Origin: Chrysophaeum taylorii
Lineage: Eukaryota > Sar > Pelagophyceae > Pelagomonadales > Pelagomonadaceae
Direction: 5' to 3'
DNA length: 63,224 nt
Assembly (NCBI GenBank): GCA_029834535.1
Contig: JAQMWT010000641.1
Span: 1-63,224 of the forward strand
Part shown: piece after piece, positions 6,887 to 54,739 of the stretch
Numbering within the stretch: position 1 is the first letter of the stretch
How the letters are laid out: every line of letters starts with the position of its first letter
Notes under the pieces: generated by a model
Told to the model about the DNA's origin: nothing
What the model saw: the letters and a program-made list of their open reading frames with translations, nothing else
Databases searched by the model: none
Position numbers and translations under genes: made by a program

Positions 6887-6904
6887 ACGTGTGGTAACCT
6901 TGCG

Positions 6905-19122: not shown

Positions 19123-19129
19123 GCGTGTA

Positions 19130-28022: not shown

Positions 28023-28379
28023 ACTTAACTAACTTCAGACCTCTCCCGAGCATGGGAGCCAGGCCGGACCGACAGGCGCCAGTCCGGAACCACGGGCCTG
28101 TAGACGAGGGGCGCCGAAAGGTGGGTCGGCGGAGAGTGATCATCAAGCTTGTCGCCATGCGACGAAGAGACCGCGATGTGACTGACAACCAACTCGTCGA
28201 TAACCTTCCGTCTGCGCCCCCCGGCCATACCCCGTCCTACTGCGAACGTTCCGGCTGCCAACAGGCCCGCCCGGGAGGCGAATAGGTGCCAACCTACGCC
28301 GGGAGGGCGGATGCCCTCGCAAGGCTCAGGATTCATGAGGCACCGTCCTCCATCGCAACCACGCGGTCGGCGATCAGGG
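28023..28379 (-). mobile_element. Short interspersed element, copy 3
   Basis: Flanked by a 15-bp target duplication with one mismatch: TTTGGAGTTTTCATA (28,008-28,022) and TTTGGAGTTTCCATA (28,380-28,394). 5' end lacks the first few bases. Same body and TTAG tail as the other copies; the target was the C-rich region, which therefore extends to about 28,455. Confidence 0.93.
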
Positions 28380-28455
28380 TTTGGAGTTTCCATATTTATG
28401 GCCAACCCCAGACAACTTTATAACGATATCGTCATCGCACTGCGATTATCCGCAC

Positions 28456-30644: not shown

Positions 30645-30771
30645 ACAAAAAGGGCGGAAGGGTAAGGAAGGAAAGAAAGAGGGAAAGCCGTATTACGGAG
30701 AGAAAACCCTCGTGTAGAGATACGTGTGAAAATGTTCCAGTGTCGCACACATAATAGTGTAGCTCTCTGGA
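30645..30771 (-). mobile_element. Copia LTR fragment (first 127 bp)
   Basis: Matches the first part of the LTR, starting at TCCAGAGAG on the minus strand at 30,771 and ending where module B begins. It lies head-on against a plus-strand ORF3 end. Confidence 0.85.
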
Positions 30772-30917
30772 GCAACATTACAGCACGCTCGACGTCATAA
30801 TTAATTTGTCCTGTTTTGTTGTTGTTTGTTCCATTGTTCACTGTTCTCATGTATATTGCACAAGTTCCGCCTCAAGAACGTCTCAGATGCATAAATCGTT
30901 TTCACACGTTGAGGGGG
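30772..30917 (+). pseudogene. ORF3 C-terminal remnant with polypurine tract
   Basis: Matches the end of ORF3 in element Z (46,965-47,101): the membrane segment around LFVPLFTV, then IAQVPPQER, then the polypurine tract GAGGGGG at 30,911-30,917, directly followed by an LTR start. This fixes the LTR edge and shows that the tract and LTR lie immediately after, and partly overlap, the ORF3 end. An in-frame stop lies near 30,800. Confidence 0.75.
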
Positions 30918-31317
30918 TCCAGAGAGCTACACTATTATGTGTGCGACACTGGGACATTTCACACCTATCTCTACAAGAGGGTTTTCTCTCCGTAATACGG
31001 CTTTCCCCTCCTTCCTTCCTTACCCTTCCGCAATTACTTATTCATGACTATGAAGAACCCAGTCTGAAGCTCTTTTCCAACATGGAGTAGGCCTCCAGGT
31101 GCGTACCGTCAGGTACGGGGTTTTCTGTTTAATTAACAGAGGCTTCGTTCCTCGTTGTCAGTGTAAACGCTTATATGGGACCGAATGTCCTTAAGGAGTT
31201 AGGACTTAAATCCCTACCTTGTTTGTGTAGTAGCATGTGACAAGCGGAATGGTCTGTACACGCCTAAAACTGCACGCAGTCTCTACCATGTACCCGGAGA
31301 GGGTCAAATCTCTCTAG
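30918..31317 (+). mobile_element. Partial Copia LTR (element Z)
   Basis: First 400 bp of the LTR, following the polypurine tract. At 31,317 it jumps to gag sequence corresponding to the EEMKSLLSTLWTTASQAST part of X, so a deletion removed the rest of the LTR and the gag N-terminus. Confidence 0.87.
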
Positions 31318-32427
31318 GTACAGGAGGAAATGAAAAGCTTACTGAGTACCCTCTGGACAACCGCTTCTCAAGCTTCGACACAGTCCTTAGATCCTGATCA
31401 AGCCACTTAAGTTAATCTCCACTTATCTCGAGTTGATACTATGTCCAATACCATATGGGGCGAATACGGAAGGTTATCGACGAGTTGGTTGTCAGTCACA
31501 TCGCGGTCTCCTCGTCGCATGGCGACAAGCTTGATGGTCACTCTCCGCCGACCGACCTTTCGGCGCTCCTCGTCTACAGGCCCGTGATTCCGGGCTGGCT
31601 CCTGTCGGTCCGGCCTGGCTCCCATGCTCGGGAGAGGTCTGAAGTTAGTTTAAGTTAGTTAGTTCCAATACCATAGTGAGCCTCTTAGAAGCCGATAAGG
31701 AATCTCATGTTTTGGAAGAAAAGTATCAAGCTGAAACATCTGCTCCTGAAGCGTCCCCCAGTGATGCGGAGCAGAGGGGGACTGCTGAAACAGAGAAATG
31801 TTTCACACTTTTCTGTCCATTAAAGATGATGAAATCGATAACATCCCTCAGCCGCTATTGCAGCACATAAACGCTAAAGCTCAGAATGCGTTCGTCATCA
31901 AGCTCGGGAAACTTCCTCGCACTCCGAGCTCCCCAATAATCTACCCAACGAAGATAATGAGGATGGCACAGATCTCCCTGTGTTGCTACCAAAACTAGAC
32001 AATGGTTTTACACTCGTCGTTGTGCCTTCCGAACAAACGCAAAGTCTCATGACACAGTACGTGTTTGGTCAAAGCTCAACACATGCCTGTTATGCAACAA
32101 CACTTAAACTGTACAACGAGTGCAATTTGCCGCTAATGACTACGCCAGGATATGCTGACACAAGTGCTTCTCAACGTGTAATTAACTTTAAACGTTACGC
32201 TGATCCTATCCACATCGTAAAGCTACCCGAGTCCTTATCACCTGCTATCCAGACTGCTACGGATACGCAGAGCATCACACATGCTATGATTATAAGAACT
32301 CTCATTCCCGCTCTCCCAAAGCATCCAAATGTGGGATATGTAAAGTTAGACGTTGCGCTTTTCCTACCCAAGCAAAACGACCATAACGATCCCGATCTGC
32401 ACATCATCAGCATGACTCAATGGGGAG
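31318..32427 (+). pseudogene. Gag end and protease start, element Z
   Basis: Gag C-terminal part (MKSLLSTLWTTASQAST), interrupted by a short element at 31,456-31,663, then AEQRGTAETE and HTFLSIKDDEIDNIPQPL (31,798 on). The protease loop is GYADTSASQRVINF at about 32,145-32,185, with Ser where X has Cys and Copia usually has Gly. AMIIRTLIPALPKHPNVGY and HIISMTQWG follow, up to the point where element W is lodged. Several frame changes are needed. Confidence 0.72.
31456..31663 (+). mobile_element. Short interspersed element, copy 4 (5' truncated)
   Basis: 12-bp target duplication TCCAATACCATA (31,444-31,455 and 31,664-31,675). Only the last 200 bp of the element plus a TTAG-type tail. Confidence 0.95.
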
Positions 32428-33260
32428 TGCAGAGAAATCTGCTGCCTCTTACCCTTATCCGTCCGTTGAGAACGTGATCTCTTCCTTACCCTTCTTCTTC
32501 CTTTCTACACAATCAAATAGTCCTCTGATTTGTGCCTACGCTCATCATCATGGTCTAGCGCGCCCCGAGGTATGTAGCACTATACACTTAACCTTTCTCG
32601 TGTAGTTCTAGATGCCGCCTGTCGTGTTCTGAGGATATAGGGAACATAACCTTCATTCCCCGAATTAACCTTCCAGACGTTCACGATGAGACGGGATGGT
32701 TTCCCAGGTGACTTACCACTGCTTGCTAAATGCTCTGCAGGTTATGGGCCCAGGCGGGTCCCTGAGAAACCATGTGTTAAAACGCGCACGTAACCTAAGG
32801 GTATTGGGTCGTTACCGCCCCGACACAGCCTCGCCACGAAAACACACTTGTAAATACAACGCCATTACCATTGGGCTGTATATAATATTTTTTGCACACG
32901 TGATCGTGTAACCTTGTGTGCACCTGTTCATAGCATCGTATTGTCATGTCAATGTTGATGTGTGTGTAATTGGCTAACCTGTACTCTTGCACACATGTTA
33001 TGGAATATTTTGGGTACGTCCACTCGTACATTCCATGGCAATGCTTAACAAGCTCCTTGAGAGCACCAAAACTAACCAGCTGCCTGAGTGACTACGCTTA
33101 GCGACACTACTCTGGACTCACAGCTTGCACAGTCGTCATATAGACACATTTTCCATCGAAAAATCGATGAGTGTACATAGACACCGATAGACAGACCCCC
33201 TTAGAATGTCTAGACAGTGTCAACTGCGTGACTGAACCCACAGGTTCCCCGTCAACTGCT
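32428..33260 (+). mobile_element. LTR/leader of Copia-like element W
   Basis: Begins TGCAGAGAAA, comparable with the TCCAGAGAG start of the other LTRs, and has a GTTATGGGCCCAGGCG block near 32,741 like the GTTATGGGCCCAGATGCG of the X/Y LTR. A TATA-like TGTATATAATATT is at about 32,877. It otherwise diverges strongly. The edge between LTR and leader is not visible. No gene in this stretch. Confidence 0.6.
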
Positions 33261-35760
33261 ATGGCAGAACACGCAGCACGAGCCGCACCTAAGGCGATCA
33301 CAGGTGCGGATATATTGAAGCTCGAAGCTCCTGTAGTTGAGTTTCTTAACGAAGGAAATCGGTTTCAGCTTCAGAACCGCAAGGTATCCTTGCAAATCAA
33401 ACACATTAAGCAATTATTACGGTCCAGTCATGCCGATGCTTTCCTCGAGTACGACTCGTACGAAGCATATACTCGGTCATGCAAGGACTACGAGATCCTC
33501 CGGAATCAAATTCTCGATCGCGTTTTCCTGGAATGGAAGACCGATAGGGCTGCTGATCTCCGTTTAGCTGTTGATGAACTGCCCCCTGAGTATCAGGAAT
33601 GGCATTTCACCAACGAAGCTTTCCCCCACTTACCTGATGCAGAAGTAGCTCAGCTAACTACCGTCTTTTACGACTATGAAGTCAAGGCATTACGTCCTGA
33701 AATCAACGCTCGTTTCTTAGAAGAGGAACGAATCTCAAATCGCGCGCACCCGAAGGCACTAGCTTTCGACACTCGTGTTCGTGCCCCGGTTACCATGTTT
33801 TCTTTAACTGCAGCTGACTGGCACACTTACCAGAACACGCACGCTACATTCTTGCATACTTACTTCAATCTTGAAAGTGTTGGAAAACCGGCACTTGCGG
33901 CCTGGCCCGCCATCAATGAGGTATATAAAAAAAGTTATTTACCCGACAAGGCTCGAGCTATTATGCTCATCGCCTTAAGTCACTACGAGTCTGTTACGAC
34001 TACTGATGTGTCCTATTTGAAACAGCAATTTAACTCTGTTGTTTATAATCCTAACTGGTATGTCCATGTACCCTTACCCTGATCGCCGACTGCGGTTGCG
34101 ATGGAGGACGGTGCCTCATGAATCCTGAGCCTTGCGAGGGCATCCGCCCTCCCGGCGTAGGTTGGCACCTATTCGCCTCCCGGGCGGGCCGGTTGGCAGC
34201 CGGAACGTTCGCAGTGGGACGGGGTATGGCCGGGGGGCGAATACGGAAGGTTATCGACGAGTTGGTTGTCAGTCACATCGCGGTCTCCTCGTCGCATGGC
34301 GACAAGCTTGATGGTCACTCTCCGCCGACCGACCTTTCGGCGCTCCCCGTCTACAGGCCCGTGATTCCGGGCTGGCTCCTGTCGGTCCGGCCTGGTTCCC
34401 ATGCTCGGGAGAGGTCTGAAGTTAGTTAGTTAGTATGTCCATGTATTTATCGAAGCTGTCCTAGCATTTAGGCAAATCTCTTACCAACTTAACCAGGAAG
34501 AGACTGACCTTCAATTCGACTTTGGCACTCTTTGCAGAAAAATCTATGAAGAGATACATCGGCATTATGCCGATAATACCAGCAACAACCGCTACGATCG
34601 TGGTTGGGTAGATTGGTGTTATATGTACGAAACCCGATCTTCATCTCGACCTGTACCAGAAGCTGAACGATTGTGTCGCCCTACCAACCCAAGCTACATT
34701 TTAGAATACGCATTAGACCTATACAATGCAGTATCAAATGGGTCGAACAAACGACGCTTAGAACGCCCTGTTTCTTGGCAACCCTATGTCGAAGGTTTAT
34801 CATATCAACCAAAGCCAAAGTTACTACTTACAAAAAACTCTGGACTCAGCAGACAAAAGTCTGACTCAAACTGCTAACACACTCGCCTTCATCACTTCGT
34901 CCCAACCTGGTACATCTTCCACGTTTAATGCTAGACGCTTGCGTAACTCTAATGATGCTCGCCAGCCTTTCTCTCGCAGCGATTTATCGTATTATCGTCC
35001 TGGTGATTCTTACGTCACCAAGAAAACTGCCGGACAGTCCCATGACCGTCCAATTTACCCCCGCACTTTTGACAGGTCCTCTCGGTCTAACATGAGATTA
35101 TTAGATCGAACAAACCACACCTTAAACACCCTGCGAGAGCAGTGTAGCGAACTCACGAAGCATGTGTCCGATAATGATACCACGGCTCAGCTACAACAGA
35201 ATATCAACAATTTATTCGAGACCTTGCTACAATCAGCCGATATCCTGTCAACAACATCTACTGAGGACAACAGTAGTTTACTTCGTCTAAACGAACAGCT
35301 CATGTTTGCTGAAGACATCATTTATGATGTAGACGTTCATCTAACCTCGACCGAAAAGTCGTTAAACTATGTGGAGCCACAACACCATACTGTCGTTACT
35401 GCTCCCACCCCAACAACAACTCCTCCTACTACAAACACACGGGGTAATCCTTCCAATACTGTGTCTAACCTCTTTACCGCTTCCGCCATTTCGGCTTTAC
35501 CACCAGCATTATTGTCCTCGCTATCTTCACAGGTCCAATCTGCCCTCAACCTACCATCACAAGCCGAAACCAAAAGGGATGCCGATCACACCTCTCTATC
35601 GTCATTTGACGAAAAGCACGGCATGGCTGATGAGGCTGACGAGCCATCACCACCTGTTCAACCGATCATTATTCCAACGAATCTGTTATTGCTGAAGAAC
35701 TTCTTTACAGCCAGCCTCTCCACTACTGGCCCACATTCGGAAAACGCCTTCCTCACCAAC
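33261..35760 (+). pseudogene. Gag of element W
   Basis: ATG at 33,261 (MAEHAARAAPKAITG). Helical, capsid-like region to about residue 260 with LNEGNRFQLQNRKVSLQI, LEYDSYEAYTRSC and FLHTYFNLES, alignable with V/Y gag throughout. A short element splits it at 34,071-34,433. The frame resumes (VLAFRQISYQLNQEE, then YMYETRSSS) and shifts near 34,840, then continues as a 405-codon frame (34,786-36,003) with a Ser/Arg-rich patch (FDRSSRSNMRLLDRT) and a helical Leu/Gln-rich part. W gag keeps the same pattern in spite of low identity, showing long-term conservation of this gag type. Confidence 0.75.
34071..34433 (+). mobile_element. Short interspersed element, copy 5 (reference full-length copy)
   Basis: 363 bp, flanked by a 12-13-bp target duplication TATGTCCATGTA (34,059-34,070 and 34,434-34,445). 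Starts CCCTTACCCTGATCGCC and ends GAAGTTAGTTAGTTAG. An ORF of 103 codons runs 34,118-34,429 (MNPEPCEGIRPPGVGWHLFA...), basic and Gly/Arg-rich in the middle, whose TAG stop is supplied by the tail. The last 75 or so bases (GTGATTCCGGGCTGGCTCCT onward) match the LINE 3' end near 7,580-7,650. No convincing split pol III promoter is seen. Confidence 0.95.
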
Positions 35761-36337
35761 TACATGAAGGTAAACAGTGTCCCTCCACATTTCTCTTTTC
35801 TATATTTTGACTCTTGTGCTACCATCTCATTGATGTCCGTCCACCTACGATTTCGCAATACCCAATCATATAATTCCATTGGACTCCACATACGCTCCGA
35901 TTGTTATTCAGACGGCAACAGGACAACAACGGGCATCACACATGATGTTAACACGCAACATCGTTATTCCCATACCAGATCATCCACAAGTTGGCTACGT
36001 TAAGATCGACTTCGCTTTATGTCTTCAACCAGTGCATGACCGACATCTCGCTATCCTGAGCATGCTCGAATGGAACCAGACCAATCTTACCACCGTGTTC
36101 AACGATCGAGCTGAGCCAAAGCTCAGCGCTGTCACGAGCCGCATAGACAAAGATGTACGTATACCCATACATTATGTAGCAGCCAATTTACCCGCTCTCC
36201 CTTGTATCACTTACAACATCGCGCGACAAGCGGCTGGAACTTCGCTCCCTTGCATTTCCCCTCAAGCGATACCATGAAAACAGGGACCTACTGGCATACT
36301 ACAATTACCTACTCCAACGAGTTTTACCAGATCGGCC
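35761..36337 (+). pseudogene. Protease of element W, frameshifted
   Basis: Active-site segment FLYFDSCATISLMS at about 35,800-35,840 (Asp-Ser-Cys-Ala-Thr). After a frame change at about 35,880, MLTRNIVIPIPDHPQVGYVK and LAILSMLEW match the X/Z blocks IIRTVIPALPKHPNVGY and HIISMTQW. It ends LRKQNKFVQ-TAA at about 36,407, after which the methyltransferase frame is offset by one. Confidence 0.68.
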
Positions 36338-37843
36338 GTGGATTCGCCCTTTGGTTCTCAATCTTCGGAAACAGAACAAATTTGTTCAGTAAAATATGCA
36401 GCCATTAAGTTGACTACTTTCACGGCCAGTTTTCTCTCACAAGAGTCCAATCTCCGCAAACCCTCTGTCATGTTACTTTGTTCTGGTTTGTCAACTCCGG
36501 CGTTCCTGTCTCAAGCCACTAATTACTTAGGCTTAAATATCAATGTAAAAGTTGTTGTTGAGTCTGATGATACGCTTGTTCGTATGTTACGCCACCGTTT
36601 TCCTACTGTACTATTATTTGAATCTCTCCCCGCCTTTATTAACCATCTTCACCTAATCTCACCAGAGGAAAGGCGCACATTCTATTGTGATATAATTGAG
36701 ATCACTCCTCCCTGCACAAACAGGAGTTTACTACAACAAAAGTCAGAAGACTTACACAGCCTGCTGGACGATTCTCTTTTCGACAGCATGCTGTCTGTCA
36801 TCAAACTACTCCAGCCCTTGGTGCTACTGGCTGAGATGACGCCTCCGCATAAGTACTGTCACCAAGACCACATCACAGTGGCCAACCTTATCTATGCTAC
36901 TCTTGATTACTGTGTCGATGTTGTTGATAGGTTCCCGACCTACCTATGTGGCGACTACCAATCTAGAGAAAGGTGGATATGCGTCGCACGCAGATATTCT
37001 ACTGGACCAATTAAACTATCATCGTGGCCCATCCTCCATCCACGCCCCTTCCTAAAGATCGTGGATGATCTACAAGCTATTCCCAAGCGCCTTTGGCTAC
37101 CTAACCACATATCCAAAGACTGGATCCGGGTGTTCCCCGATCCCCCATACATATCCGTTCCTAAAACGTTTGCACCTTACTCTCGCACAGGTTCTGCTCA
37201 GCTTACTATGGCTGACCTTGAATCCCTCAATATGTTACTACTTCGCCTTCACTCACAACAGGCCCACGAGCAACGTACTCACTCCGTTCAACCCGAGTGT
37301 ACTTACCATCAGTTGTGCTTTAAACGCTCCTCTATGGAGCCATTACCCAACGCAACACATCCTATACACGTCAAGATTTTTACAATCCTCTATAACGTGT
37401 TTGCAAGCTTACATACTAACTCACCCACTCCTGTGTCCTATTACATAACCGTTTTCGAAACTAACCAACCGTCACACAGGTTATTACTTACAACCTCATC
37501 AACATCACACAACTCCTACTTCTTAACTGGTGGCCACCATTCCGACGGCGACCTCACCATAGAGAACGCCACCACAAAAAACTCCACTCCCATTAATGCC
37601 TTTGGGAGTACGTATACGTTCACTGCTTCCGACATCCCCCGCGACCGGGACAGGTCCATATATCTGGAGCCGTTTATGGGTTACTTGTGGATAGTCCAAG
37701 CCCTTCCCCAAGTTGGCTCCGCTACCACCTATGGCACCGCCATACAAAACTTCGTGTCCAGATGCGCTCTCATTATGCCTGGCTGCCTTACCTGCAAGGC
37801 CACCGACAACTCTTTCGATTACAAGGATTCTCTGTTTGCTCTG
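36338..37843 (+). CDS. C5-cytosine methyltransferase (element W, C-terminal truncated)
   Basis: Motif I VMLLCSGLSTPAFLSQA, motif II VVVESDD, motif IV ITPPCTNRS (Cys codon 36,713-36,715), motif VI LLAEMTPP, motif VIII CGDYQSRERWICVARR. The target-recognition insert follows: FAPYSRTGSAQLTMADLESL, then SHRLLLTTSSTSHNSYFLTG, then GGHHSDGDLTIENATT. It ends DYKDSLFAL and the frame continues into element Z (DKLGIHLYG) to 38,176, giving a 612-codon chimeric ORF. Motifs IX and X are lost. W is clearly a different family from X/Y/Z, yet every catalytic landmark is conserved, which suggests selection on the enzyme in retroelement lineages. Confidence 0.86.
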
Positions 37844-38176
37844 GATAAACTCGGTATACATCTTTATGGGGTTGAATTTAAAGGACAATCATCTATCCAG
37901 AGTAAAATTGATGATAATGTCAAGATTACTTTGTTTAGACTTAATAACATGTTGCCTACTCTACCAATTTATTCGCTACAACAAGCAAAAGCGCGTAAAA
38001 TGGAACTTCGCTCACTACAGTTCAGACTAAGTGCTTTTAATGAACAACGCGAAATGCTTAAGCTATATTCCACCCTCATGGAACGCGTAATTTACGTCCC
38101 ATGGCTCAAAACCATCTTGGAGTCAATGCATTCGCAGCTGCCTTACATACGCAAGCATTTCCCACCTCCCGTATGA
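37844..38176 (+). CDS. Protease C-terminal region, element Z
   Basis: DKLGIHLYGVEFKGQSSIQS to YIRKHFPPPV, then TGA. Matches Y 6,905-7,250 and X 19,130-19,430. In frame with the W methyltransferase upstream by chance of the junction, and in frame with the methyltransferase-integrase ORF downstream once the TGA is passed. Confidence 0.8.
   Translation, partial: DKLGIHLYGVEFKGQSSIQSKIDDNVKITLFRLNNMLPTLPIYSLQQAKARKMELRSLQFRLSAFNEQREMLKLYSTLMERVIYVPWLKTILESMHSQLPYIRKHFPPPV
38174..38176 (+). other. In-frame TGA between gag-protease and methyltransferase-pol
   Basis: CCC GTA TGA CGC AAG. The same TGA with the same context occurs in Y (at 6,905) and X (near 19,137). The codons on both sides belong to one continuous frame in Z (TGA, then RKVTTRLLHTVTTS). 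This is either a readthrough site that sets the gag to pol ratio, or the true end of ORF1 with separate expression of ORF2. Confidence 0.7.
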
Positions 38177-38194
38177 CGCAAGGTTACCACACGT

Positions 38195-41100
38195 TTGCTT
38201 CACACAGTAACTACGTCTCCTAGCTCACGAACACCTACTGTAACTCTACTTTGCTCTGGGATGTCCACTCCTGCCTTCTTGGCTTGCGCTTCTAATGACT
38301 TGCAAATCAACATCAACGTTAAACTTCTTGTTGAGAGCGACGACAATCTCACGCACATGCTACGAAGACGTTTTGGTAATTCCATCGAAGTTTTCCCATC
38401 CCTACCCAAGTTTCTCAAACATCTCCATCGAGCATCGGACGTCGAACGTGGAAGATATTACACCGATATAATGGAACTGACATCACGATGCACAAATCGC
38501 AACATAATCAATGGGAGATCCATTTCCGCCTTCGAGCGTGATATGGACGATTCCTTGTTTCCAAGTGCTCTAAGTGTACTTGAGCTTTTAAAGCCGATTG
38601 TTCTTTTCATGGAAATGACACCACGACACTCCGCATCGTATGAAGACCATATACGAGTTGCTAATCTCATCTTCTCAACGATGCACTATACGGTGGATAT
38701 ATGTGACCGATTTCCATGCTATCTGTGTGGAGATTATCAAGCCAGAGAAAGATGGATCCTCGTTGCGCGCAAATATAACACCGGCCATCTTGATCTGCTT
38801 TCCTGGCCTAACAAACGAGTCACTTCCTTTCTGGACATTGCGGACCATGCTAATTCCATCAGTCGCAAGTTAATAGTCGACGAACCTTGGACGCAGGTCT
38901 TTCCTGACATACCATTCGTGTCCACACCTAAAACCTACAACACTTTCAGTCGTACAGGATCCGTGCGCTTAACTGTGACTGAGCTTGAAACCCTAACCAT
39001 GCTGTTTCTTCGTCTGCACTCTAACAAAACAGTCGAACATCCAAGTCAAGATGAAATGGAGGGCATTTCTAACTTTCGCCTGGGATTCTTGACTAATTCA
39101 AGAAAACCACTTGCCTGTATGAGATCTCCTATTGAACTCAAAGCTTTTGTGCTCCTCTATAATATTATGGGACGTTTATTCCCTAAATCCATCACATTAC
39201 CTGTGTCCTTTCGTATTACAACTATCGAATCTAACCAACCATCTCACAGGTTATTCTTAAATAAATCCTCTACTTCCTCCATCATTTACATCACCGGTGG
39301 AAGACACACAGGTGGAGACATAACAGTTTCTAACTCCTCTTCTAAATACCAAGCACATATAAATGCATTTGGCGAAACCTACACCTTCCTAACACATGAT
39401 GCCGGAATCAATAAGACTGCTTCTCTCGATCCTGTTACCGGTTTTCTTTGGCTTTGCCAAGCATACCATAATAATAATGAAAATCAAGACACGCGTCGTC
39501 TAGTACAAACACTGGTTTCCTATACTTCTCCTGTGCTTCACGATACTTTCGTCTTCTACCCTCAGGAAAATCGTCTTGAATTTATCGATAAAATTTTTGC
39601 TTTAAGTGACATGCATTTGTCCCAAAGCAGATACCTTGGCTTTATTACATCAAGCGATAGGAAGATGGGTGCCAAAGTTCATTCTATATACACTCCCACT
39701 CCTACCATTCGTGGATTTGCTAATATGCTCGTGTACGATCCACGACTCGATCGCATTCGACATTACTCAGCTCGTGAATTGGCACGCGCCAATAACTTCA
39801 CAGCGTACCAAATCAATTTTCTTTTGTATTTGTCCCCGGACCTATGCTGTGACATAATCGCTAATGCTATTCCGGCTGGAACATATCATGTAATCTATAA
39901 ACATTTGTGTCAGCTTGTCTATGACTTGCGTAAATTAACGCTATCACCATCTTTTGACCCTGATCATGCTTCTTTAACCAAAAACTATAGGTCAACCTTT
40001 TTCACAAATATATTCCCAACAGACACATCCTTAATATTACACCAGAGTTTCATTACAATGTTATACATCTCTAATAAGAAACTCTCATGTTGTGATAATC
40101 TTGCTTCTAACCACGAACTTCCATCTTTTCATCTCGATTCAGTAGCTCATGTCTTCCTCTCTAACACCTCATCCGCAGATATATCATCTCCTACTAAAGA
40201 AAGACAAATTCCTCTCATAACACCAAGACAGCTCCATGAGAAGCATGCACCCTTTGATAAAAAAGTTCATGCCAGGGGCACCCTCGCATTTCGAGATGCG
40301 CAACAACGAGCTACCAATTTTCACAACATTCACCATTCTAGTGATTCTCAAGCTATAAAAGCTGTTCAGGTTATTGCCAGTCCGGGACATCACCCATCTG
40401 ACGTACCCTACCGTAAGTTCTGTGTGGACTGTACGATTCATAAAAAACGCTTCCCTCATCCACACCATCTCACCAAACAACCATCATTCGAAAAAAATTT
40501 TCAACCTGGTGAAGCCTGGGCATGTGACGGTGGTTACGTATCTGTTCTCTCGGAATGGGGATCCTTTCGACATATTTTTTTTTTTAAGTGTCTCGTTTCT
40601 AAATTTTTATTAGTGTACTTTTGTCGTAGCACTAACTCTAGCGAATTTTGTAACGCCCTTGAGTTTGTCCGCAATTTTTGCTCTACTTATGTTCATGTAC
40701 AACTAAAACAAATCTATTGTGATTCCTTTAAACCCTATTTATCTCAGCATGTTACAACTCCCTTTCGTGTGGAACATGGTATTAACATGTCCGCGTTCCC
40801 CCCTTACTACTTACATGTCTTTAATCATGAAGTAGAAGCCGCTGTTGGTCACATAGCCACTGCCGCGTCTACACGACTCCGGCATATGCTTAATGTATCC
40901 TATAAAGGTCACCCCCTAACAGATCCGGCACCACACTACCCGTGGGCTGTTATACATGCTATCCAATCGTATAATCTCCTCCCTAACGTTTCCCTCGAGC
41001 GTATTTATAATAAAGTCCTAAGCCCCCAACAAGTTTTGTTGGATCAATGTAATGTTCCCCAACAGGACTATCTCGAACCTTTTGGCTCTGTTTGTTATCT

Positions 41101-41557
41101 GCATTTGGAACCTAACGAATTTCATAAATATGAGCCTCGATGTCGTCCTTACATCTACTTATGTGGTGCTAATGTTATAAACCCTTTAATAACACCCCAT
41201 GTTAATCATTTAGCCGATGTTGTCCTTAATCCTGAAAACGGCCAAGTCCGTGTTTCCTCTAAACTGACTTTTCCTCATCTTATTTATAAATCTCCTCCTG
41301 ATTATGAACAGCATCCACCTCCCGCACCTTCACCCGACATTCCCTTCTCTGTTCACAGCACCCCCAATGATGCGGCGCAGAGGGGGAATGCTATGCCTAC
41401 CGACACTGACTACGAGAGGGGGACTCCTTCTCCACCTCCCCATGCTACCTCTCCCGTTCCCGCATGCGATCCAGATGCTTCCGCACCCGCTGTTCCTGTC
41501 ACTACACCTCCTACATCTGAAGTGTCCTCCAACACTTTGCCACTTTTACCATCTTAA
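38195..41557 (+). CDS. Methyltransferase-integrase polyprotein (element Z)
   Basis: 1,120 codons. Methyltransferase, residues about 15-580: motif I LLCSGMSTPAF (18-28), motif II Glu-47, motif IV SRCTNRN with the catalytic Cys at 99 (codon 38,489-38,491), motif VI Glu-140, motif VIII YQARERW (181-187), a roughly 320-residue target-recognition insert, motif IX RHYSARELARANNF (522-535), motif X IANAIPAGTYH (555-565). Integrase, residues about 690-1,000: His-His/Cys-Cys finger (709-746), Asp-778, Asp-843, Glu-879. A Pro/Ser-rich linker follows. No ATG is seen at the start; the first codon after the TGA in frame is at 38,177. The Pro before the catalytic Cys is Arg here (CGA for CCA), unlike X, Y and W. 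The frame ends early because of a 25-bp duplication at 41,532-41,581. Confidence 0.9.
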   Translation: MLHTVTTSPSSRTPTVTLLCSGMSTPAFLACASNDLQININVKLLVESDDNLTHMLRRRFGNSIEVFPSLPKFLKHLHRASDVERGRYYTDIMELTSRCTNRNIINGRSISAFERDMDDSLFPSALSVLELLKPIVLFMEMTPRHSASYEDHIRVANLIFSTMHYTVDICDRFPCYLCGDYQARERWILVARKYNTGHLDLLSWPNKRVTSFLDIADHANSISRKLIVDEPWTQVFPDIPFVSTPKTYNTFSRTGSVRLTVTELETLTMLFLRLHSNKTVEHPSQDEMEGISNFRLGFLTNSRKPLACMRSPIELKAFVLLYNIMGRLFPKSITLPVSFRITTIESNQPSHRLFLNKSSTSSIIYITGGRHTGGDITVSNSSSKYQAHINAFGETYTFLTHDAGINKTASLDPVTGFLWLCQAYHNNNENQDTRRLVQTLVSYTSPVLHDTFVFYPQENRLEFIDKIFALSDMHLSQSRYLGFITSSDRKMGAKVHSIYTPTPTIRGFANMLVYDPRLDRIRHYSARELARANNFTAYQINFLLYLSPDLCCDIIANAIPAGTYHVIYKHLCQLVYDLRKLTLSPSFDPDHASLTKNYRSTFFTNIFPTDTSLILHQSFITMLYISNKKLSCCDNLASNHELPSFHLDSVAHVFLSNTSSADISSPTKERQIPLITPRQLHEKHAPFDKKVHARGTLAFRDAQQRATNFHNIHHSSDSQAIKAVQVIASPGHHPSDVPYRKFCVDCTIHKKRFPHPHHLTKQPSFEKNFQPGEAWACDGGYVSVLSEWGSFRHIFFFKCLVSKFLLVYFCRSTNSSEFCNALEFVRNFCSTYVHVQLKQIYCDSFKPYLSQHVTTPFRVEHGINMSAFPPYYLHVFNHEVEAAVGHIATAASTRLRHMLNVSYKGHPLTDPAPHYPWAVIHAIQSYNLLPNVSLERIYNKVLSPQQVLLDQCNVPQQDYLEPFGSVCYLHLEPNEFHKYEPRCRPYIYLCGANVINPLITPHVNHLADVVLNPENGQVRVSSKLTFPHLIYKSPPDYEQHPPPAPSPDIPFSVHSTPNDAAQRGNAMPTDTDYERGTPSPPPHATSPVPACDPDASAPAVPVTTPPTSEVSSNTLPLLPS

Positions 41558-42233: not shown

Positions 42234-42478
42234 TAACTAACTAACTAACTTCAAACCTCTCCCGAGCATGGGAGCCAGGCCGGACCGACAGGAGCCAGTC
42301 CGGAATCACGGGCCTGTAGACGAGGAGCGCCGAAAGGTCTGTCGGCGGAGAGTGACCATCAAGCTTGTCGCCATGCAACGAGGAGACCGCGATGTGACTG
42401 ACAACCAACTCGTCGATAACCTTCCGTCTGCGCCCCCCGGCCATACCCCGTCCCACTGCGAACGTTCCGGCTGCCAAC
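42234..42478 (-). mobile_element. Short interspersed element, copy 6 (5' truncated)
   Basis: 7-bp target duplication CGCTCAC (42,227-42,233 and 42,479-42,485). Breaks the pol frame of element Z between linker and reverse transcriptase. Confidence 0.94.
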
Positions 42479-44387
42479 CGCTCACACTCACGATAATGTC
42501 GCTTCTTACGCAACTACCCATCTTACGACGGCTCATGACCCCAGCACTGTTGGTCCGGACGAATACAAGATTCAAGCCAAAGATATCAAAATTGATGAAT
42601 ATGAGTTGAACTGCCTCAAAGGTCTCTCAGACGCTGATCGCAAAGCTTACATCTCCGCTATTTCTAAAGAGATTTTTGATATTGTTAAGTTTGGCTGCTT
42701 TAAACTCGCGTTGCCAATGGTCAACTCAAAGCCTATTGACACCCGCCTCGTCCTTCGTATAAAAACCAATGCTGCTGGTCAATATATTAAACATAAAGCA
42801 CGCCTGGTCCTACGAGGATTCTTAGCCTCTCTGGGCACCGATTTTTTCAACACATTCAGCCCTATGGCACAGCTTACTGGCATCCGTTGTGTTCTGGCGC
42901 TAGCAGCCCATCTGCGACTTCCCGTCTACCACGTCGACGTACCTAACGCTTTTGTTCAAGCTCCCATCGACTCTCATGTCTATGTCAAACTGCCACAAGG
43001 CATTTACCTTCTTGATCCCGAAGATACTAAATATCAAGGCCGTCGTCTTCCAAAGCTACTTAAATCTCTCTATGGATTACGCCAGAGCCCTGCCCTTTGG
43101 AATCAAACCATAAACGGCTTCTTTGATTCATTAGGCTATACAAGATTTCGAACAGATACCTGCATTTACGCTAAAGTCCAAGCTGATGCTACGTTTTTAA
43201 TTTGCACGCTCTCAGTAGATGACGTTGTCATCATTTGCACTTCGGAAACTCTACGTCGTGAATTCCAGCAAGCCCTGAAAAAGGAATACTCAGTCGACAC
43301 CTTTGAAGAAGTCCATACTCTCTTAGGCATGCGCATAACGCGTACTACTGATGGTTCTATATCACTGGACTGTCAGGCTAAACTTGATGCATTGTTCGAA
43401 GAGTACCCTATTTTAATGCAGTTACGTCCCACTTCTACACCGATGTCACCATCAACCACGTATAAAACTGGAGAGCCATCTTCTGATATGGACAAGTTTA
43501 TTCTTCATACCTTCTCCACCTTACTCGGCAAGCTTACTTTTGTCCAATTGGCCTGTCGCCCTGATCTATCCCAAAGCCTTAGTCGTTGCTCTCGAGGAAT
43601 GCACAATCCAGCATTTCGACATGTTCAAGTACGAACAGGAACGCTCCGCTACTTGCGCAAGCCCGAAAATCGCAATCTTCGACTACGGTACTACTCTGGC
43701 TCTTCCGCTCTAATGGACCATCTTCGACTTCTTATCGGCAATCGCACTGACATGGCAACCATGACCATGTTGGATTACACTAAAGAACAAGTCAATTCAG
43801 GTAACTTTGATCCATTGGTCGCGTTCGTTGATGCCGATAACGCACCTTCTTATGAACAAGACCGCAAGTCTACTACCGGTTACGCCATCTTTTTGTTTGG
43901 TTCTCTCATCACTTGGAAGTCTAAACTACAACCTATCACAGCTACTTCTACGCATGAGAATGAACTTATCGCCCTTAATATGTGTGCCGATGATGTGGTC
44001 TGGTTACTAACGGAAATGGCATTCGCTATAAATCCTCACTTCTATCTTCGCCAACCTTCAGGGAAGGATTTGCTACTAGATTATGATGCTCACGACAATC
44101 CCCTCCCATCGGACATGTCGTTCATACGTAACAGTCCTATACTTGGAGACTCTGCTTCTGCTATCCATCTATCAAATAATCCCGACAGTGCGACTAAGGC
44201 CAAAGCTATCAGCACACGCTGGTTCCGTATTCGCGACTACGTACAGTTAAAACGTATACGTATACATCATGTTTCCGGTACTCAAAACATTGCTGATGGA
44301 TTTACTAAACCCTTCGGAGCTCCGCTCTTCAGCAGATTTCGCACGTTACTTGGCTTACAACAACCCATAGCTCAACAAGATGTTTGA
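42479..44387 (+). CDS. Copia reverse transcriptase and RNase H (element Z)
   Basis: The open frame from 42,606 is 593 codons. Ty1/Copia reverse transcriptase: RLVLRIKTNAAGQYIKHKAR, FSPMAQLTGIRCVL, YHVDVPNAFVQAPI (catalytic Asp), VYVKLPQGIYLL, LYGLRQSPALWNQTI and LSVDDVVIICT (catalytic Asp-Asp). Then EVHTLLGMRITRTTDGSI and RPTSTPMSPST. RNase H: VAFVDADNAPSYEQDRKSTT, FGSLITWKSKLQPITATSTH, ELIALNMCADDVVWL, LGDSASAIHLSNN and DGFTKPFGAPLF. The enzyme is complete apart from the upstream short-element insertion. A small deletion relative to X removes a few residues after DDVVWL. YVDD is replaced by SVDD, shared with X. Confidence 0.92.
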
Positions 44388-44502
44388 CCCTTACCCTTCA
44401 CTATGTCCGAAATGACGTTAAACTAACCCTCTTATACCACGGAACAGTGGATCGCTAAGATGTGAAATGCAATGAAATACGCAATGCGGGGATCCTTTTA
44501 AT

Positions 44503-46224
44503 ATGAATCCCTCAAAGAACAAGGATGCTGCGAGCCGGCGCTATTCTGTACTGAACCGTGGCCGCGGTGGCGTGTCATCACTATCATCACCTTTCAATGC
44601 CTTAAATCCAGGCGTTGCTCCGACTAGTTCTCCTAATCGGAAGCATCAAACCTATCTGTCGGTTGCTCAAGGACATCAGTCGACGCCCTTGACGCCCAAG
44701 GCAACTGTCCAACAACAATCTAAACCGCAAGCAGCGAAGTCCGAGTACTTCCTGCTCAGGCACTGCAAGTTTGATGTCATGGCGATGATGTCAGGGAATG
44801 TTACAGCTCTTGGTTCCCAGCCACCAAACTTTCTTCTGCCGCAACCTAAGGATCCTCAATGTTGGCATAAGTCTTTGCAGCAGCTGCTTACGGAAGCACA
44901 ACAAACACAATTTGTGGACAATGTCCAATATCTCAGTTCGTTGCTGTGTGTAAAAGCAAAGCGCATCCGGAATGCCCCCGCCATATCACCGAATGAAGGT
45001 ATTCGCTATCATCGCTTTCCACCCATTAAAGGGGTTGTCAAAGTACATGTGGCGTGTACCAGATGCTATAATAAAACCGATATGCCGGGTACACCCCTTG
45101 TACTCATCATATGCACTGAAGATGAGCTTAAAACGGACAAGATACGACAAATCATCGAAGATCATCTCGCGTCTGAGCAACATGCATCGCACTGCTTCGA
45201 TGTACCGCGCCCCTTCTTTCTGTTGATTTGCGTCATGTGCAATTTATCGCATCACGGGATAGCGTTAATTCGCAATAATCAACAGCCCTTCCAGCTTTCT
45301 TGCTATAATGATCCAGCTGCCCACATAAGAGCTATAATCCTCCGCCTTGGAAAGTCCATTGCTATTAACAAACTGCTCAAAGAGGCGCTCATGCAGCTTA
45401 TGGCAACCCTTAACGTCGATGCTTCTAAAATTATTGTCAACCCTGACGCTAATGCCCCTCTCTTGCTTCAGCTGCCTTTCATTTCGAGTGTAAATCTTGA
45501 GATTCTTGTAGCAGCTTGGTCTTTGCTACAGTCCATTGAAGATAAAACCTGTATAGTCACCAATCCTGATGAGCTACTTAATGTGCTCATCGAACGCTTT
45601 GTTAACGATGTTTCTCACCAACTCAACGCGACTTCTTCCGAGACGATACCGCCAATGCTTAACTACTTTCGCGAACTTTCACCTGATCATCAGTCAGCCT
45701 TCAAAAACGTGCTAGTCCAGGTTGGCTATCCTTCGGCTATAATTGATGCTTTTTCAGATAATACCTCATCTGAAAATGTAACACCCACACCCATCGATAA
45801 TCCACCCTCTGAACCCACGCCAGATAATGCTAACGACAATATGACTGAAGCTTTACGTCAATTAAAAGAAGAGGTTCGGTCTTTATCCTTACGTCTCACT
45901 AACACCGAACAGCAATTGATGGCACGAGATCAACAACTATCGCTTGCACTAACTTCTCTCACACAGATGCAAGAGGCTTACGAAACTTTAAATACTCAAG
46001 TGACCGAGAACATCAAGCATGTGTCTCTGTTAGACAACATACTGTCGAGTCTTCAGATGCATCAGGACACTATAATCCCAACCTTTGCTGTCTTTGTCCA
46101 TATAATATCTCGTTCGCTTATTTCGTCCATTGGACAGTTCCCTCCAGATACGTATAATGAGGCACAACGAGCTCTAATCGACGACGCAGCTCACAGTTTA
46201 CATGCAGCTATCCTTCGGCTATAA
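44503..46224 (+). CDS. ORF3 of Copia-like element Z
   Basis: 573 codons from MNPSKNKDAASRRYS, 115 bp after pol. Residues about 15-75 are basic and Ser/Gln-rich; 85-240 form a globular domain with paired Cys (VACTRCYNK, LICVMCNLSHHG, LSCYNDPAAH); about 430-520 are heptads (RQLKEEVRSLSLRLTNTEQQ), a coiled coil. It ends early because of a 482-bp duplication. The downstream part (46,454-47,137) carries the true C-terminus. I do not recognise the family; ORF3 is also present in X. Position after RNase H, a coiled coil and a late membrane segment recall envelope-like ORFs of some plant Copia elements, but no signal peptide is seen at the start. Confidence 0.72.
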   Translation: MNPSKNKDAASRRYSVLNRGRGGVSSLSSPFNALNPGVAPTSSPNRKHQTYLSVAQGHQSTPLTPKATVQQQSKPQAAKSEYFLLRHCKFDVMAMMSGNVTALGSQPPNFLLPQPKDPQCWHKSLQQLLTEAQQTQFVDNVQYLSSLLCVKAKRIRNAPAISPNEGIRYHRFPPIKGVVKVHVACTRCYNKTDMPGTPLVLIICTEDELKTDKIRQIIEDHLASEQHASHCFDVPRPFFLLICVMCNLSHHGIALIRNNQQPFQLSCYNDPAAHIRAIILRLGKSIAINKLLKEALMQLMATLNVDASKIIVNPDANAPLLLQLPFISSVNLEILVAAWSLLQSIEDKTCIVTNPDELLNVLIERFVNDVSHQLNATSSETIPPMLNYFRELSPDHQSAFKNVLVQVGYPSAIIDAFSDNTSSENVTPTPIDNPPSEPTPDNANDNMTEALRQLKEEVRSLSLRLTNTEQQLMARDQQLSLALTSLTQMQEAYETLNTQVTENIKHVSLLDNILSSLQMHQDTIIPTFAVFVHIISRSLISSIGQFPPDTYNEAQRALIDDAAHSLHAAILRL

Positions 46225-46693
46225 TTGATGCTTTTCCGGATAATACCTCATCTGAAAATGTAACACCCACACCCATCGATAATCCACCCTCTGAACCCAC
46301 GCCAGATAATGCTAACGACAATATGACTGAAGCTTTACGTCAATTAAAAGATGAGGTTCGGTCTTTATCCTTACGTCTCACTAACACCGAACAGCAATTG
46401 ATGGCACGAGATCAACAACTATCACTTGCACTTACTTAACTTCTCTCACACAGATGCAAGAGGCTTACGAAACTTTAAATACTCGAGTGACCGATAACAT
46501 AAAGCATGTGTCTCTGTTAGACAACACACTGTCGAGTCTTCAGATGCATCAGGACACTCTAATCCCTGCCTTTGCTGTCTTTGTCCATATAATATCTCGT
46601 TCGCTTATTTCGTCCATTGGACAGTTCCCTCCAGATACGTATAATGAGGCACAGCGAGCTCTAATCGACGACGCAGCTCACAGTTTACATGCA
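45725..46693 (+). repeat. 482-bp tandem duplication in ORF3
   Basis: GCTATCCTTCGGCTATAATT at 45,725 recurs at 46,207, and the copies run in parallel to CATGCAGCTAT. The second copy has a 5-base insertion at about 46,433-46,437 that makes a stop. The two copies differ by only a few substitutions, so the event is recent relative to the age of the element. Confidence 0.94.
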
Positions 46694-47137
46694 GCTATGT
46701 CTGATGTACAGGATCGTGTTATTCCTGCTTTGAATCTACATGCTCTTACACCAGATGCTGCTATGTCCTTCCTCTCGTCTGTTATGGCACCCTTGGTCAC
46801 CTTGAGTGATGCAATGACTACGCACAATACTGTTAACGACCTATCCTCCGATGATCACAACTCGTCTTCTCCAGAGTTAAAGGAACTGGACGATAATAGC
46901 GAGGATGAATTGGACCACACATCTGATGTTGTGGATACCGATACCGCTTCTTTACGCAACATCACAACACGCTCGACATCACAATTAATTTGTCTTGTTT
47001 CGTTGTTGTTTGTTCCATTGTTCACTGTTTTTATGTATATTGCACAAGTTCCGCCTCAAGAACGTCCGAAATGCACAAACCGTTTTCACATGTTGAGGGG
47101 GTCCAGAGAGCTACACTATTATGTGTACGACTATTGA
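46454..47137 (+). pseudogene. ORF3 C-terminal part with membrane segment (element Z)
   Basis: 227 codons. Begins in the coiled coil (MQEAYETLNTRVTDNIKH), then helical (SDVQDRVIPALNLHALTPDA), an acidic stretch (DDNSEDELDHTSDVVD) and a hydrophobic segment LICLVSLLFVPLFTVFMYIA about 35 residues from the end, followed by IAQVPPQERPK. This is a good single membrane-spanning helix with a short tail on the far side. The polypurine tract GAGGGGG (47,095-47,101) and the LTR start (47,102) overlap the last codons, so ORF3 reads into the LTR. Confidence 0.7.
47102..47132 (+). mobile_element. 3' LTR stub of element Z
   Basis: First 31 bp of the LTR (TCCAGAGAGCTACACTATTA...), then unrelated AT-rich sequence. 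The rest of the 3' LTR is deleted. Confidence 0.85.
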
Positions 47138-47211
47138 ACAGCGCTATATTACATTACCAAAAATATGATATCGTTTTTTTTCCGTTTTATATTGATATTA
47201 TATGGAAGCCC

Positions 47212-47939
47212 TGATCGCCGACCGCATGGTTGCGATGGAGGACGGTGCCTCATGAATCCTGAGCCTTGCGAGGGCATCCGCCCACCCGGCGTAGGTTGGC
47301 ACCTATTCGCCTCTCGGGCGGGCCGGTTGGCAGCCGGAACGTTCGCAGTGGGACGGGGTATGGCCGGGGGGCGCAGACGGAAGGTTATCGACGAGTTGGT
47401 TGTCAGTCACATCGCGGTCTCCTCGTCGCATGGCGACAAGCTTGATGATCACTCTCCGCCGACCCACCTTTCGGCGCAACTCGTCTACTAACTAACTAAC
47501 TAACTAACTTCAGACCTCTCCCGAGCATGGGAGCCAGGCCGGACCGACAGGAGCCAGTCCGGAATCACGGGCCTGTAGACGAGGGGCGCCGAAAGGTGGG
47601 TCGGCGGAGAGTGATCATCAAGCTTGTCGCCATGCGACGAGGAGACCGCGATGTGACTGACAACCAACTCGTCGATAACCTTCCGTTTGCGCCCCCCGGC
47701 CATACCCCGTCCCACTGCGAACGTTCCGGCTGCCAACCGGCCCGCCCGGGAGGCGAATAGGTGCCAACCTACGCCGGGAGGGCGGATGCCCTCGCAAGGC
47801 TCAGGATTCATGAGGCACCGTCCTCCGTCGCAACCATGCGGTCGGCGATTCCTCGTCTACAGGCCCGTGATTCCGGACTGACTCCTGTCGGTCCGGCCTG
47901 GCTCCCATGCTCGGGAGAGGTCTGAAGTTAGTTAGTTAG
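47212..47939 (+). mobile_element. Short interspersed element, copy 7, split by copy 8
   Basis: 13-bp target duplication TTATATGGAAGCC (47,199-47,211 and 47,940-47,952). The two halves are 47,212-47,488 and 47,852-47,939. The 103-codon ORF is cut by the nested copy. Confidence 0.94.
47489..47851 (-). mobile_element. Short interspersed element, copy 8 (nested in copy 7)
   Basis: 9-bp target duplication CTCGTCTAC (47,480-47,488 and 47,852-47,860), the target being the body of another member of the same family in opposite orientation. Confidence 0.95.
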
Positions 47940-47952
47940 TTATATGGAAGCC

Positions 47953-50700: not shown

Positions 50701-51830
50701 ATGGCTGAGAGGCCAATGACAGAACGACCGCAGTGGTTTCGGGACGCACAGGAGCATCTGCAACGATTCAGTGCAGCGACTCCATTTTCGTCTATTGGAA
50801 GAACGCCGTTCAGTACGCCCTTTCCACGGCCGGAAGCCGAGGAAAGCGGCATCAGAAGAGAGGCAAGGTCATCGGACAGCCTCGACAACCCCCCATGCGT
50901 GATCATCCTTCCGGATCCACGCGCTGGCGAAGGGGGAGCTACGGTTGCGCCAGACGCAACTTCAAGACAGGGTGAGCCGACGTTCCCGTGCGCACGACCC
51001 TACGAACGTGCGATGAATACTACGGAGCCATCTCGAGCGGAACCCGGACCGTTTACCGTGGACCAGAGGGGCGTGCACCTCCTAGGCCACCATCCGCGAA
51101 TACGAGAGCGACAGATTTTCGCGTGGATACCGACCCCGAGATTCTGCAGACCACTAATGAACGATTTGAGATGTACCAGTCGCAGATCGAGCAAGTCATA
51201 CGTGAACTTGAGCGCACCCGCCGCGACGCGCAACAACAACGCTCAGAAGTGGAGCGGCAGCGGATCGACAACGATCGACTTCGACGAATGGTGGAGGAAT
51301 CCACGCGGGCGCATGCTCGAGAGGCACGGCCAGCCTCTCCGGATGCTACGCGTGTTACGCTCGAAGAAGATGACGCTGCATCGGCATTGACCGATGATCA
51401 GCCACCGCGAAGTCGACCGGAGCCTACCCCGCAGCATCATACTGACCCCGGTTCAGCGCGTCCTCGTGACGAAGAAGAGCTACATCAGATCAAGAAGGGA
51501 GCTGCTAGTATGACTCGTATCATGTTGTCGCCTCTCACCGGGCAAATCGCCAAGACACAGGATGAGGTTAACGCGTGGTTTATGCAGTTGCAGCGTAAGA
51601 TGGAAGGCGAGATCATGCCGCATGATGGATGTATCAACATGCAGCTAGAAGCCACTGAAGACGTTTGTCATGCGACTCTCACGGCTGCTGTTGACGAGAA
51701 TGAAGTCGAGGAGGATGTCTTAAGTGACAGACATCCTCCTGAGCCACCTCCAGATGAAGAAGAAAAAAAAACACCAGAAATGGAGATGGAGGCGACTGAT
51801 AAGGACCTGCTATCCAAGCATGCCTCCTTG
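50701..51830 (+). pseudogene. Gypsy-like gag, frameshifted
   Basis: ATG at 50,701 (MAERPMTERPQWFRDAQEHL) opens 229 codons; near 51,080 the better frame is that of the ORF 50,988-52,217. In it: FRVDTDPEILQ-like start, then heptads (IEQVIRELERTRRDAQQQ, RIDNDRLRRMVEE), a Pro-rich part (RPEPTPQHHTDPGSARP), then MTRIMLSPLTGQIAKTQDEV and an acidic end. Same layout as the gag fragments at 4,745 and 56,425. No zinc knuckle. Confidence 0.6.
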
Positions 51831-51839
51831 GTTTGGATA

Positions 51840-52295
51840 CCCACCACCTACACCTTTGTCGTCGTCTACTTTGCTGGCGCTGGAGGATCAACGCTGGGTA
51901 TCCGGCGATGCAATGAGCTAAATGGCAGTCATTTCGCATTGTCCTGGCTTTGGATGCTTGTCCTCAAGCCCGAGCCACCTTTGAGCTCAATTTTCCGAAG
52001 ATCCCCTATGTTTTGCATGAGTTTGGGAAATCACATCGTCGTACATACGACTTGGTGTTGTCGTATTTACATTCAGATATTCGGAAGCACTCTTGTTTTC
52101 ATGCAAGTCCGCCGTGTATCTATGGGTCGACTGCCAATTTGCACTACAGGGACGCACGCAAGGGCGCTACTATTACTTCTTGGGTCCTGCGTCAATTCCG
52201 CAACGCACCTTATGTAATTGGACGATGGACGCTCGAGCAGGAACCATCAGTGATCCCTTTTGTGCATCACCAATTTTATGTGCTGCGCATTGTCG
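51840..52295 (+). pseudogene. C5-cytosine methyltransferase, N-terminal half, in Gypsy-like element
   Basis: Motif I is textbook: YFAGAGGSTLGIRRC (51,867-51,911). A one-base frameshift between about 51,915 and 51,945 moves to the frame of the 811-codon ORF at 51,950, where LALDACPQARATFELNFP is motif II with the Asp that binds the methyl donor. Motif IV is FHASPPCIYGS, catalytic Cys codon 52,115-52,117, followed by RDARKGATITSWVLRQF. Motif VI is RWTLEQEPSV with Glu at 52,235-52,237 (ENV becomes EQE). After about 52,300 it changes directly into reverse transcriptase thumb sequence, so motifs VIII-X and the target-recognition region are deleted. It resembles cellular and bacterial C5-methyltransferases more than the Copia-borne one does. 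Confidence 0.85.
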
Positions 52296-54373: not shown

Positions 54374-54739
54374 CCCTTACCCTGATCGCCGACCGCATGG
54401 TTGCGATGGAGGACGGTGCCTCATGAATCCTGAGCAATGCGAGGGCATCCGCCCTCCCGGCGTAGGTTGGCACCTGTTCGCCTCCCGAACGGGCCGGTTG
54501 GCAGCCGGAACGTTCGCAGTGGGACGGGGTATGGCCGGGGGGCGCAGACGGAAGGTTATCGACGAGTTGGTTGTCAGTCACATCGCGGTCTCCTCGTCGC
54601 ATGGCGACAACGTTGATGATCACTCTCCGCCGACCCACCTTTCGGCGCCCCGCGTCTACTGGCCCGTGATTCCGGACTGGCTCCTGTCGGTCCGGCCTGG
54701 CTCCCATGCTCGGGAGAGGTCTGAAGTAAGTTAGTTAGT
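54374..54739 (+). mobile_element. Short interspersed element, copy 9
   Basis: Full-length, starting CCCTTACCCTGATCGCC and ending in a TTAG tail. No target duplication is visible; sequence beyond the tail is not Gypsy, so one flank was probably lost after insertion. The 103-codon ORF is open with substitutions. Confidence 0.92.

Follow-up and report, generated by a model that had tools for sequence, protein, structure and literature searches.

What a retrotransposon might gain from carrying a cytosine methyltransferase is the question raised by a 63,224-nucleotide stretch of the genome of the alga Chrysophaeum taylorii (GenBank assembly GCA_029834535.1, contig JAQMWT010000641.1; hereafter, the window). 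One open frame of its plus strand, 38177–41557, encodes 1126 amino acids in which a divergent C5-cytosine methyltransferase (MTase) is fused to a Copia-type integrase; a reverse transcriptase (RT) and RNase H follow downstream, in 42420–44387 (+). The preliminary description of this DNA, made from the letters alone, had proposed a C5-type MTase with the full order of motifs between the protease and the integrase of a Copia-type element. This holds for the Copia-type elements studied here, in which the MTase is also retained by selection.

The MTase Domain

The domain, which belongs to a Copia family that we call B, spans 608 amino acids (38177–40000, +) and comprises motifs I–VIII, a long variable region, and motifs IX and X. 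As described earlier, the named motifs lie in order and in one frame with the integrase, and they could be read out at their coordinates: motif I at 38246–38278, II at 38330–38344, IV at 38474–38503, VI at 38609–38629, VIII at 38729–38755, IX at 39773–39799, and X at 39854–39874 (all +). This is the order found in C5-MTases, with Pro-Cys in motif IV and Glu in motif VI. Motif VI usually has the form ENV; here it is EMTPP, and motif VIII is degenerate in a third Copia type, C, and in some of the related proteins (P0001 and others) discussed below. For the window copy itself, the earlier description has to be corrected: motif IV has SRC and motif VI has EMTPR, and in this the copy differs from the 17 other B copies compared.

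The Pfam profile PF00145 gave no match at E ≤ 1 to the window protein, for family B or for a second Copia family, A (for A42, none at E ≤ 0.1). Among relatives, type C is matched at 32.2 bits, P0001 scores 20.2 bits against a cut-off of 22, and P0003 and P0004 carry PF00145 by precomputed domains. A profile comparison aligned the Copia MTases, motifs IX and X included, to canonical enzymes. The modelled MTase has a C5-type Rossmann core (predicted local distance difference test score, 63.6), and the PDB matches listed by Foldseek are cytosine-C5 MTases; the model of the full 608-residue domain was of poor quality, and motifs IX and X are covered by the profile alignment instead. Taken together, the relatives, the profile comparison, the modelled core with its PDB matches, and the motif order indicate, at the level of sequence and predicted fold, that the domain is homologous to C5-MTases. 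Of the checks proposed in the preliminary description, the Pfam search was thus negative and the fold comparison positive; of the combination that it had set against an MTase, no PF00145 match together with a non-Rossmann fold, only the first half proved true, since the modelled core matches cytosine-C5 MTases.

Genomic Copies and Selection

The genome searched comprises 70.8 Mb in 697 contigs, the window being contig C641; its 84 light-harvesting matches mark the source as a photosynthetic eukaryote. The B protein has at least 54 matching stretches in it and the A protein at least 73, with 43 rows free of stops. The A and B MTases are ca. 45% identical, and synonymous sites are saturated in 270 of 270 A–B pairs. 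The ratio of nonsynonymous to synonymous substitution (dN/dS) was determined for copies with a single open frame over about the whole domain. Of the 23 A loci fetched, 15 qualified; among the B copies (the window copy and L002–L030, 30 in all), 18 did. The A loci were mostly chosen among stop-free matches, which favors intact copies, and the choice of open copies biases the ratios toward constraint. With this bias, whole-domain dN/dS was 0.184 for the 15 open A copies and 0.087 for the 18 of family B, one of which is the window copy. The ratios for A and B, respectively, were 0.095 and 0.062 in motifs I–VIII, 0.239 and 0.090 in the long region between motifs VIII and IX, and 0.101 and 0.081 in motifs IX–X. 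Pro-Cys is present in motif IV of 17 of 18 B and all 15 A open copies (the one B exception has SRC), and the motif VI Glu is retained in 32 of 33, the exception being a B copy with DMTPP. Judged from these substitution patterns, the MTases of both families are under purifying selection.

A Conserved In-Frame UGA Precedes the MTase

Directly before the MTase lies an in-frame TGA (38174–38176, +). All 31 B places scanned retain it, and in A it is retained at 20 of 22. The scan covered those fetched loci, and those places within the window, in which the alignment extends across the TGA; L035 and L049, two A loci rearranged just upstream, were excluded. In B, the next codon is CGC at 28 places and CAC at three; in A, it is CTA at 13, ATG at four, and others at three. 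Neither TAA nor TAG occurs at the aligned stop site among the A and B places scanned. As to the A exceptions, in L044 the stop was removed by a small in-frame deletion, so that the frame continues past this point, and in L048 a sense codon takes the place of the stop and is followed by a frameshift. TGA is also the terminator of the RNase H frame and of a DNMT2-like gene of this genome. P0004 and P0005 are single long polyproteins without a TGA before the MTase.

The ratio of nonsynonymous to synonymous polymorphism (pN/pS) around the TGA was calculated from gap-free copies only (25 of 31 B, 18 of 22 A). In B, the first Met after the TGA sits inside motif I, and the 27 codons between TGA and this Met have a pN/pS of 0.224 (25 copies), whereas the two alternative frames give 1.05 and 2.98. 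Upstream, a coding stretch running from the protease to the TGA in the frame of the MTase (37844–38173, +) shows selection on its last 50 codons, with a pN/pS of 0.174 (24 copies) as compared with 1.07 and 2.51 for the alternative frames. The A values, which are without frame controls, were 0.339 for 19 codons after the TGA and 0.086 for 15 codons before it. The low pN/pS on either side argues that both sides are read in one frame, which fits readthrough. Because the TGA is conserved and the codons between it and the first Met are selected, the MTase probably heads a Pol protein made by readthrough. A UGA-C context favors such decoding. Alternatively, translation may start at a non-AUG codon, may reinitiate where the TGA is followed by ATG, or may insert selenocysteine.

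The Window Copy and the A Element Nested in It

With Arg-Cys in motif IV, EMTPR in motif VI, and gag missing upstream, the window B copy looks dead and is probably inactive. A repeat of ca. 300 bases, in addition, breaks the element before the RT.

Directly upstream of the MTase–integrase frame lies a second MTase-like open reading frame (ORF), 36278–38176, in the same frame and with a single stop between the two. Such a tandem could be the normal structure of the element, with two complementary MTases; we consider the chance of this negligible. The second MTase (36278–37849, +) belongs to family A, has intact PPC and EMTPP, and is truncated before motifs IX and X. It is part of an A-family fragment at 32428–37843 (+), inserted in the B element and containing a long terminal repeat (LTR), gag, a protease with DSCAT at 35809, and MTase motifs I–VIII. 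The inserted piece begins at the A-family 5′ LTR (32428–32739, +, TGCAGAG...CTCTGCA) and ends within A's own MTase, where it meets B at the common sequence GATAAACT; this 8-base match is also present in B beside the insertion point, as would be expected of a deletion after insertion. Of 15 other plus-strand B loci, 14 lack the upstream MTase, the sequence ending at 32427 being joined without a break to that starting at 37844, as can be followed base by base in L002 and L003. On the 5′ side, this B sequence is the coding part at 31664–32427 (+), with a protease-like DTSAS at 32157 identified by reading. The full 632 amino acids of the upstream ORF are matched in none of 73 scored rows except the window itself. 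The tandem arrangement was therefore rejected as a native design, the two ORFs being adjacent by accident because an A fragment is nested in a B element.

The A LTR is followed by a primer-binding-like site, GGTTATGGGCCCAG (32740–32753, +), with further copies at 11729 and 1203 (−); an LTR plus a primer-like site was found for family B as well. The site is a putative match to the initiator tRNA; ARAGORN detected no tRNA gene at two fetched perfect matches of the pattern.

One Clade of MTase-Carrying Copia Elements and a Gypsy MTase

Assignment to Copia (Ty1/copia) is based on the presence of an RVT_2 reverse transcriptase (PF07727, E 4.4e-42) within 42420–44387 (+), where RNase H was identified by reading. 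The integrase, in the same frame as the MTase, occupies 40322–40849 (+), with zinc-binding residues at 40322–40435 and D, D, and E at 40517–40849; its Pfam scores (PF00665, rve, E 0.0057; PF25597, SH3_retrovirus, E 0.00026) are both below curated cut-offs. The order protease–integrase–RT–RNase H also matches Copia, the protease and RNase H being placed by reading and rve lying below its cut-off. The RT active site (43209–43235) is SVDD in families A and B; YVDD is usual in Copia elements.

The MTase was found in Copia families A and B, in type C, and in environmental Copia pols. In one type C copy (L056, 3–5552), a PF00145-positive MTase, an integrase, and RVT_2 share one 1850-amino-acid frame. 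In an RT tree of 101 of 118 matched rows (those of at least 190 amino acids), the nine MTase carriers (A twice, B, C, P0002–P0005, and P0007) form one clade with 100/99 support. MTase presence requires one change on the tree, the same in 100% of bootstrap trees, versus a mean of 8.8 when shuffled; a hidden Markov model (HMM) of the family detected no MTase in the remaining proteins of the RT set. In the MTase tree, C, P0002, and P0003 group together (95/96), as do A and B (90/94). The RT tree shows these groupings too, in keeping with a single ancient acquisition of the MTase and its joint descent with the RT. The RT set came from the matches listed in one search in which the MTase was part of the query; since such a search is not neutral to the MTase, carriers may be over-represented and MTase-free members of the clade missing.

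A Gypsy LTR element of the window (50976–54385) contains MTase remnants unlike the Copia type (FAGAGG, SPPC). The remnant is internally deleted and extends over 50976–52300 (+), with motif I (FAGAGG) in ORF 50976–52214 and motifs II to VI in 51917–52300. At least 150 genome stretches match the motif II–VI part (the best 150 of 627 candidates, some elements being counted twice). One Gypsy relative (L059, 1–4907) matches PF00145 at 33.1 bits, its MTase lying between protease and RT by reading. Since the HMM of the Copia MTases gives no match to the Gypsy MTase, the latter is likely a separate uptake. The genome has 57 PF00145 matches in all; three were inspected and correspond to one C element, a DNMT2-like gene (L057), and a DNMT5-like gene (L058), the last two named by resemblance.

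Possible Function of the MTase

The position of the MTase in Pol, together with selection on it, suggests a role in replication. The family B element consists of gag–protease, an in-frame UGA, and MTase–integrase–RT–RNase H; we propose with moderate confidence that its MTase-Pol is made by readthrough and that the enzyme marks cytosines of the element's DNA. A minority of ribosomes would pass the UGA, yielding a small amount of MTase-Pol that would enter the particle along with integrase and RT. Either in the particle or, at about the time of integration, in the nucleus, the MTase would methylate cytosines of the element's own DNA and help new element DNA to survive or integrate. Marking of cDNA or of fresh insertions, which the preliminary description had also proposed, is our best guess; that several families carry such an enzyme under selection suggests that chemical marking of DNA may belong to the life cycle of these parasites.

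Element copies show no clear mutation trace of CpG methylation, as judged from observed/expected CpG ratios and mismatch contexts. The window as a whole has a ratio of 1.06. Copia stretches lie at 0.92–1.07 and two Gypsy stretches at 0.97 and 1.17, whereas two host genes, which are GC-richer, have 1.40 and 1.53. C/T mismatches at CpG are within the range of other contexts (0.097 versus 0.087–0.112 in A, 0.173 versus 0.154–0.194 in B). G/A mismatches at CpG amount to 0.105 in A (others, 0.072–0.116) and 0.111 in B (others, 0.040–0.097), where they are the highest.

The lack of a clear CpG trace would fit an enzyme that acts, like DNMT2, on RNA (element RNA or the tRNA primer) and not on DNA. 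DNMT2 has the same C5 fold, 9hgm and 6fdf are within the top 20 Foldseek rows, and the primer-like site presumably resembles the anticodon arm of initiator tRNA. We nevertheless regard an RNA substrate as unlikely, because the extended variable segment that separates motif VIII from motif IX could well serve to recognize a DNA target and no tRNA gene was found by ARAGORN at the two primer-pattern matches. An RNA substrate has been suggested for SymbioLINE-Dnmt in the discussion of PMC5890265. The same discussion raises the possibility that methylation by known DNMT-bearing elements slows or silences the element itself, leading to coexistence with the host. The alga's own DNMT5-like and DNMT2-like genes would accommodate such self-silencing, which the absence of a clear CpG trace in the copies makes rather improbable here. 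Less probable still is a catalytically dead domain with a structural or DNA-binding role: the window copy lacks the Pro of Pro-Cys and has EMTPR, and EMTPP itself departs from the usual ENV, but of the 33 open copies, 32 retain Pro-Cys and 32 the motif VI Glu, and dN/dS in motifs I–VIII is low (0.095 and 0.062).

Returning to marking of element DNA, a broader version of it is possible but doubtful. A Copia clade, of this alga and environmental sequences, would have long depended on its own C5-MTase, with UGA readthrough in two families and a separate uptake by Gypsy; DNA marking would then have evolved repeatedly as part of how LTR retrotransposons replicate in some algae, acting against a host defense that destroys unmarked cDNA.

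Comparison with Known Elements

DNMT-bearing retroelements are known from de Mendoza et al. (2018, PMC5890265), who describe SymbioLINE-Dnmt, SymbioDIRS-Dnmt3, and KnitGypsy-Dnmt3, i.e., LINE (long interspersed nuclear element), DIRS, and Gypsy elements. They resemble the elements studied here in having a C5-MTase in the coding region (within Pol in DIRS and Gypsy), many copies, and purifying selection. They differ in superfamily and in that their enzymes are Dnmt3-type or Symbiodinium-specific; the Symbiodinium Copia elements are given there as lacking a DNMT. Here, the carriers are of the Copia superfamily and form one clade, PF00145 misses families A and B, a long VIII–IX stretch is present in A, B, and C, and a conserved UGA precedes the MTase in A and B. 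The same paper mentions DIRS elements with Dam-type adenine methylases, which are also retroelement-borne DNA methylases but of a structurally unrelated class.

Copia is named as a carrier in one sentence of a 2025 paper (PMC12344493), according to which DNMT3 members are “embedded” in LTR Copia and DIRS elements; the passage seen describes no such element, and the mention of Copia may be a slip, since the source given for it is the 2018 paper, where the element reported is Gypsy. A 2019 opinion article lists Gypsy and DIRS as carriers. Beyond the 2025 sentence, the literature matches listed, a 2023 diatom paper among them, from a search with subscription papers, preprints, and supplements outside its reach, included no described Copia element with a C5-MTase and no conserved stop before a Copia C5-MTase. 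The nearest likeness for the stop is Tca2 of Candida albicans, in which, by its abstract (PMC2194720), an in-frame UGA between gag and pol has to be passed for Pol; a potential pseudoknot follows the UGA, and the junction alone gave no readthrough in yeast. The abstract mentions no MTase; in the elements studied here, the UGA separates the protease from the MTase, which follows the stop directly.

Published DNMT-bearing retrotransposons amount to a small number of captures, in dinoflagellates and in one charophyte, and one ca. 71 Mb genome now contributes at least three kinds of Copia element, the sampled carriers being one clade, plus a Gypsy family, all with a C5-type MTase. They provide further selected cases for asking what a parasite gains from methylating DNA, and Copia elements that lack the MTase can serve as controls. 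Since the A and B enzymes escape Pfam, surveys based on PF00145 would miss such elements.

Other Features of the Window

N-terminal parts of two further B-family MTase copies, both with SPC and EMTPP by reading, lie at 5963–6904 (−) and 18235–19140 (−). Another B copy has a non-LTR-type RT (7565–9170, −; RVT_1, E 3.7e-25) in its protease region and in an open frame with part of that region. At 30654–31031, the start of the B LTR is present as an inverted copy adjoining the B LTR. Downstream of RNase H, an extra ORF (44476–46224, +) has no Pfam match above its cut-off and ends within a tandem duplication of ca. 485 bases (45725–46698); B copy C428 has a related ORF after its RNase H, and some Copia elements have an envelope-like gene at this position. 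A repeat of up to ca. 340 bases, resembling a short interspersed nuclear element, occurs in both orientations (34094–34434, 42236–42541, 47206–47942, 28026–28382, and 31457–31650), and several of its copies end in GTTAGTTAGT.
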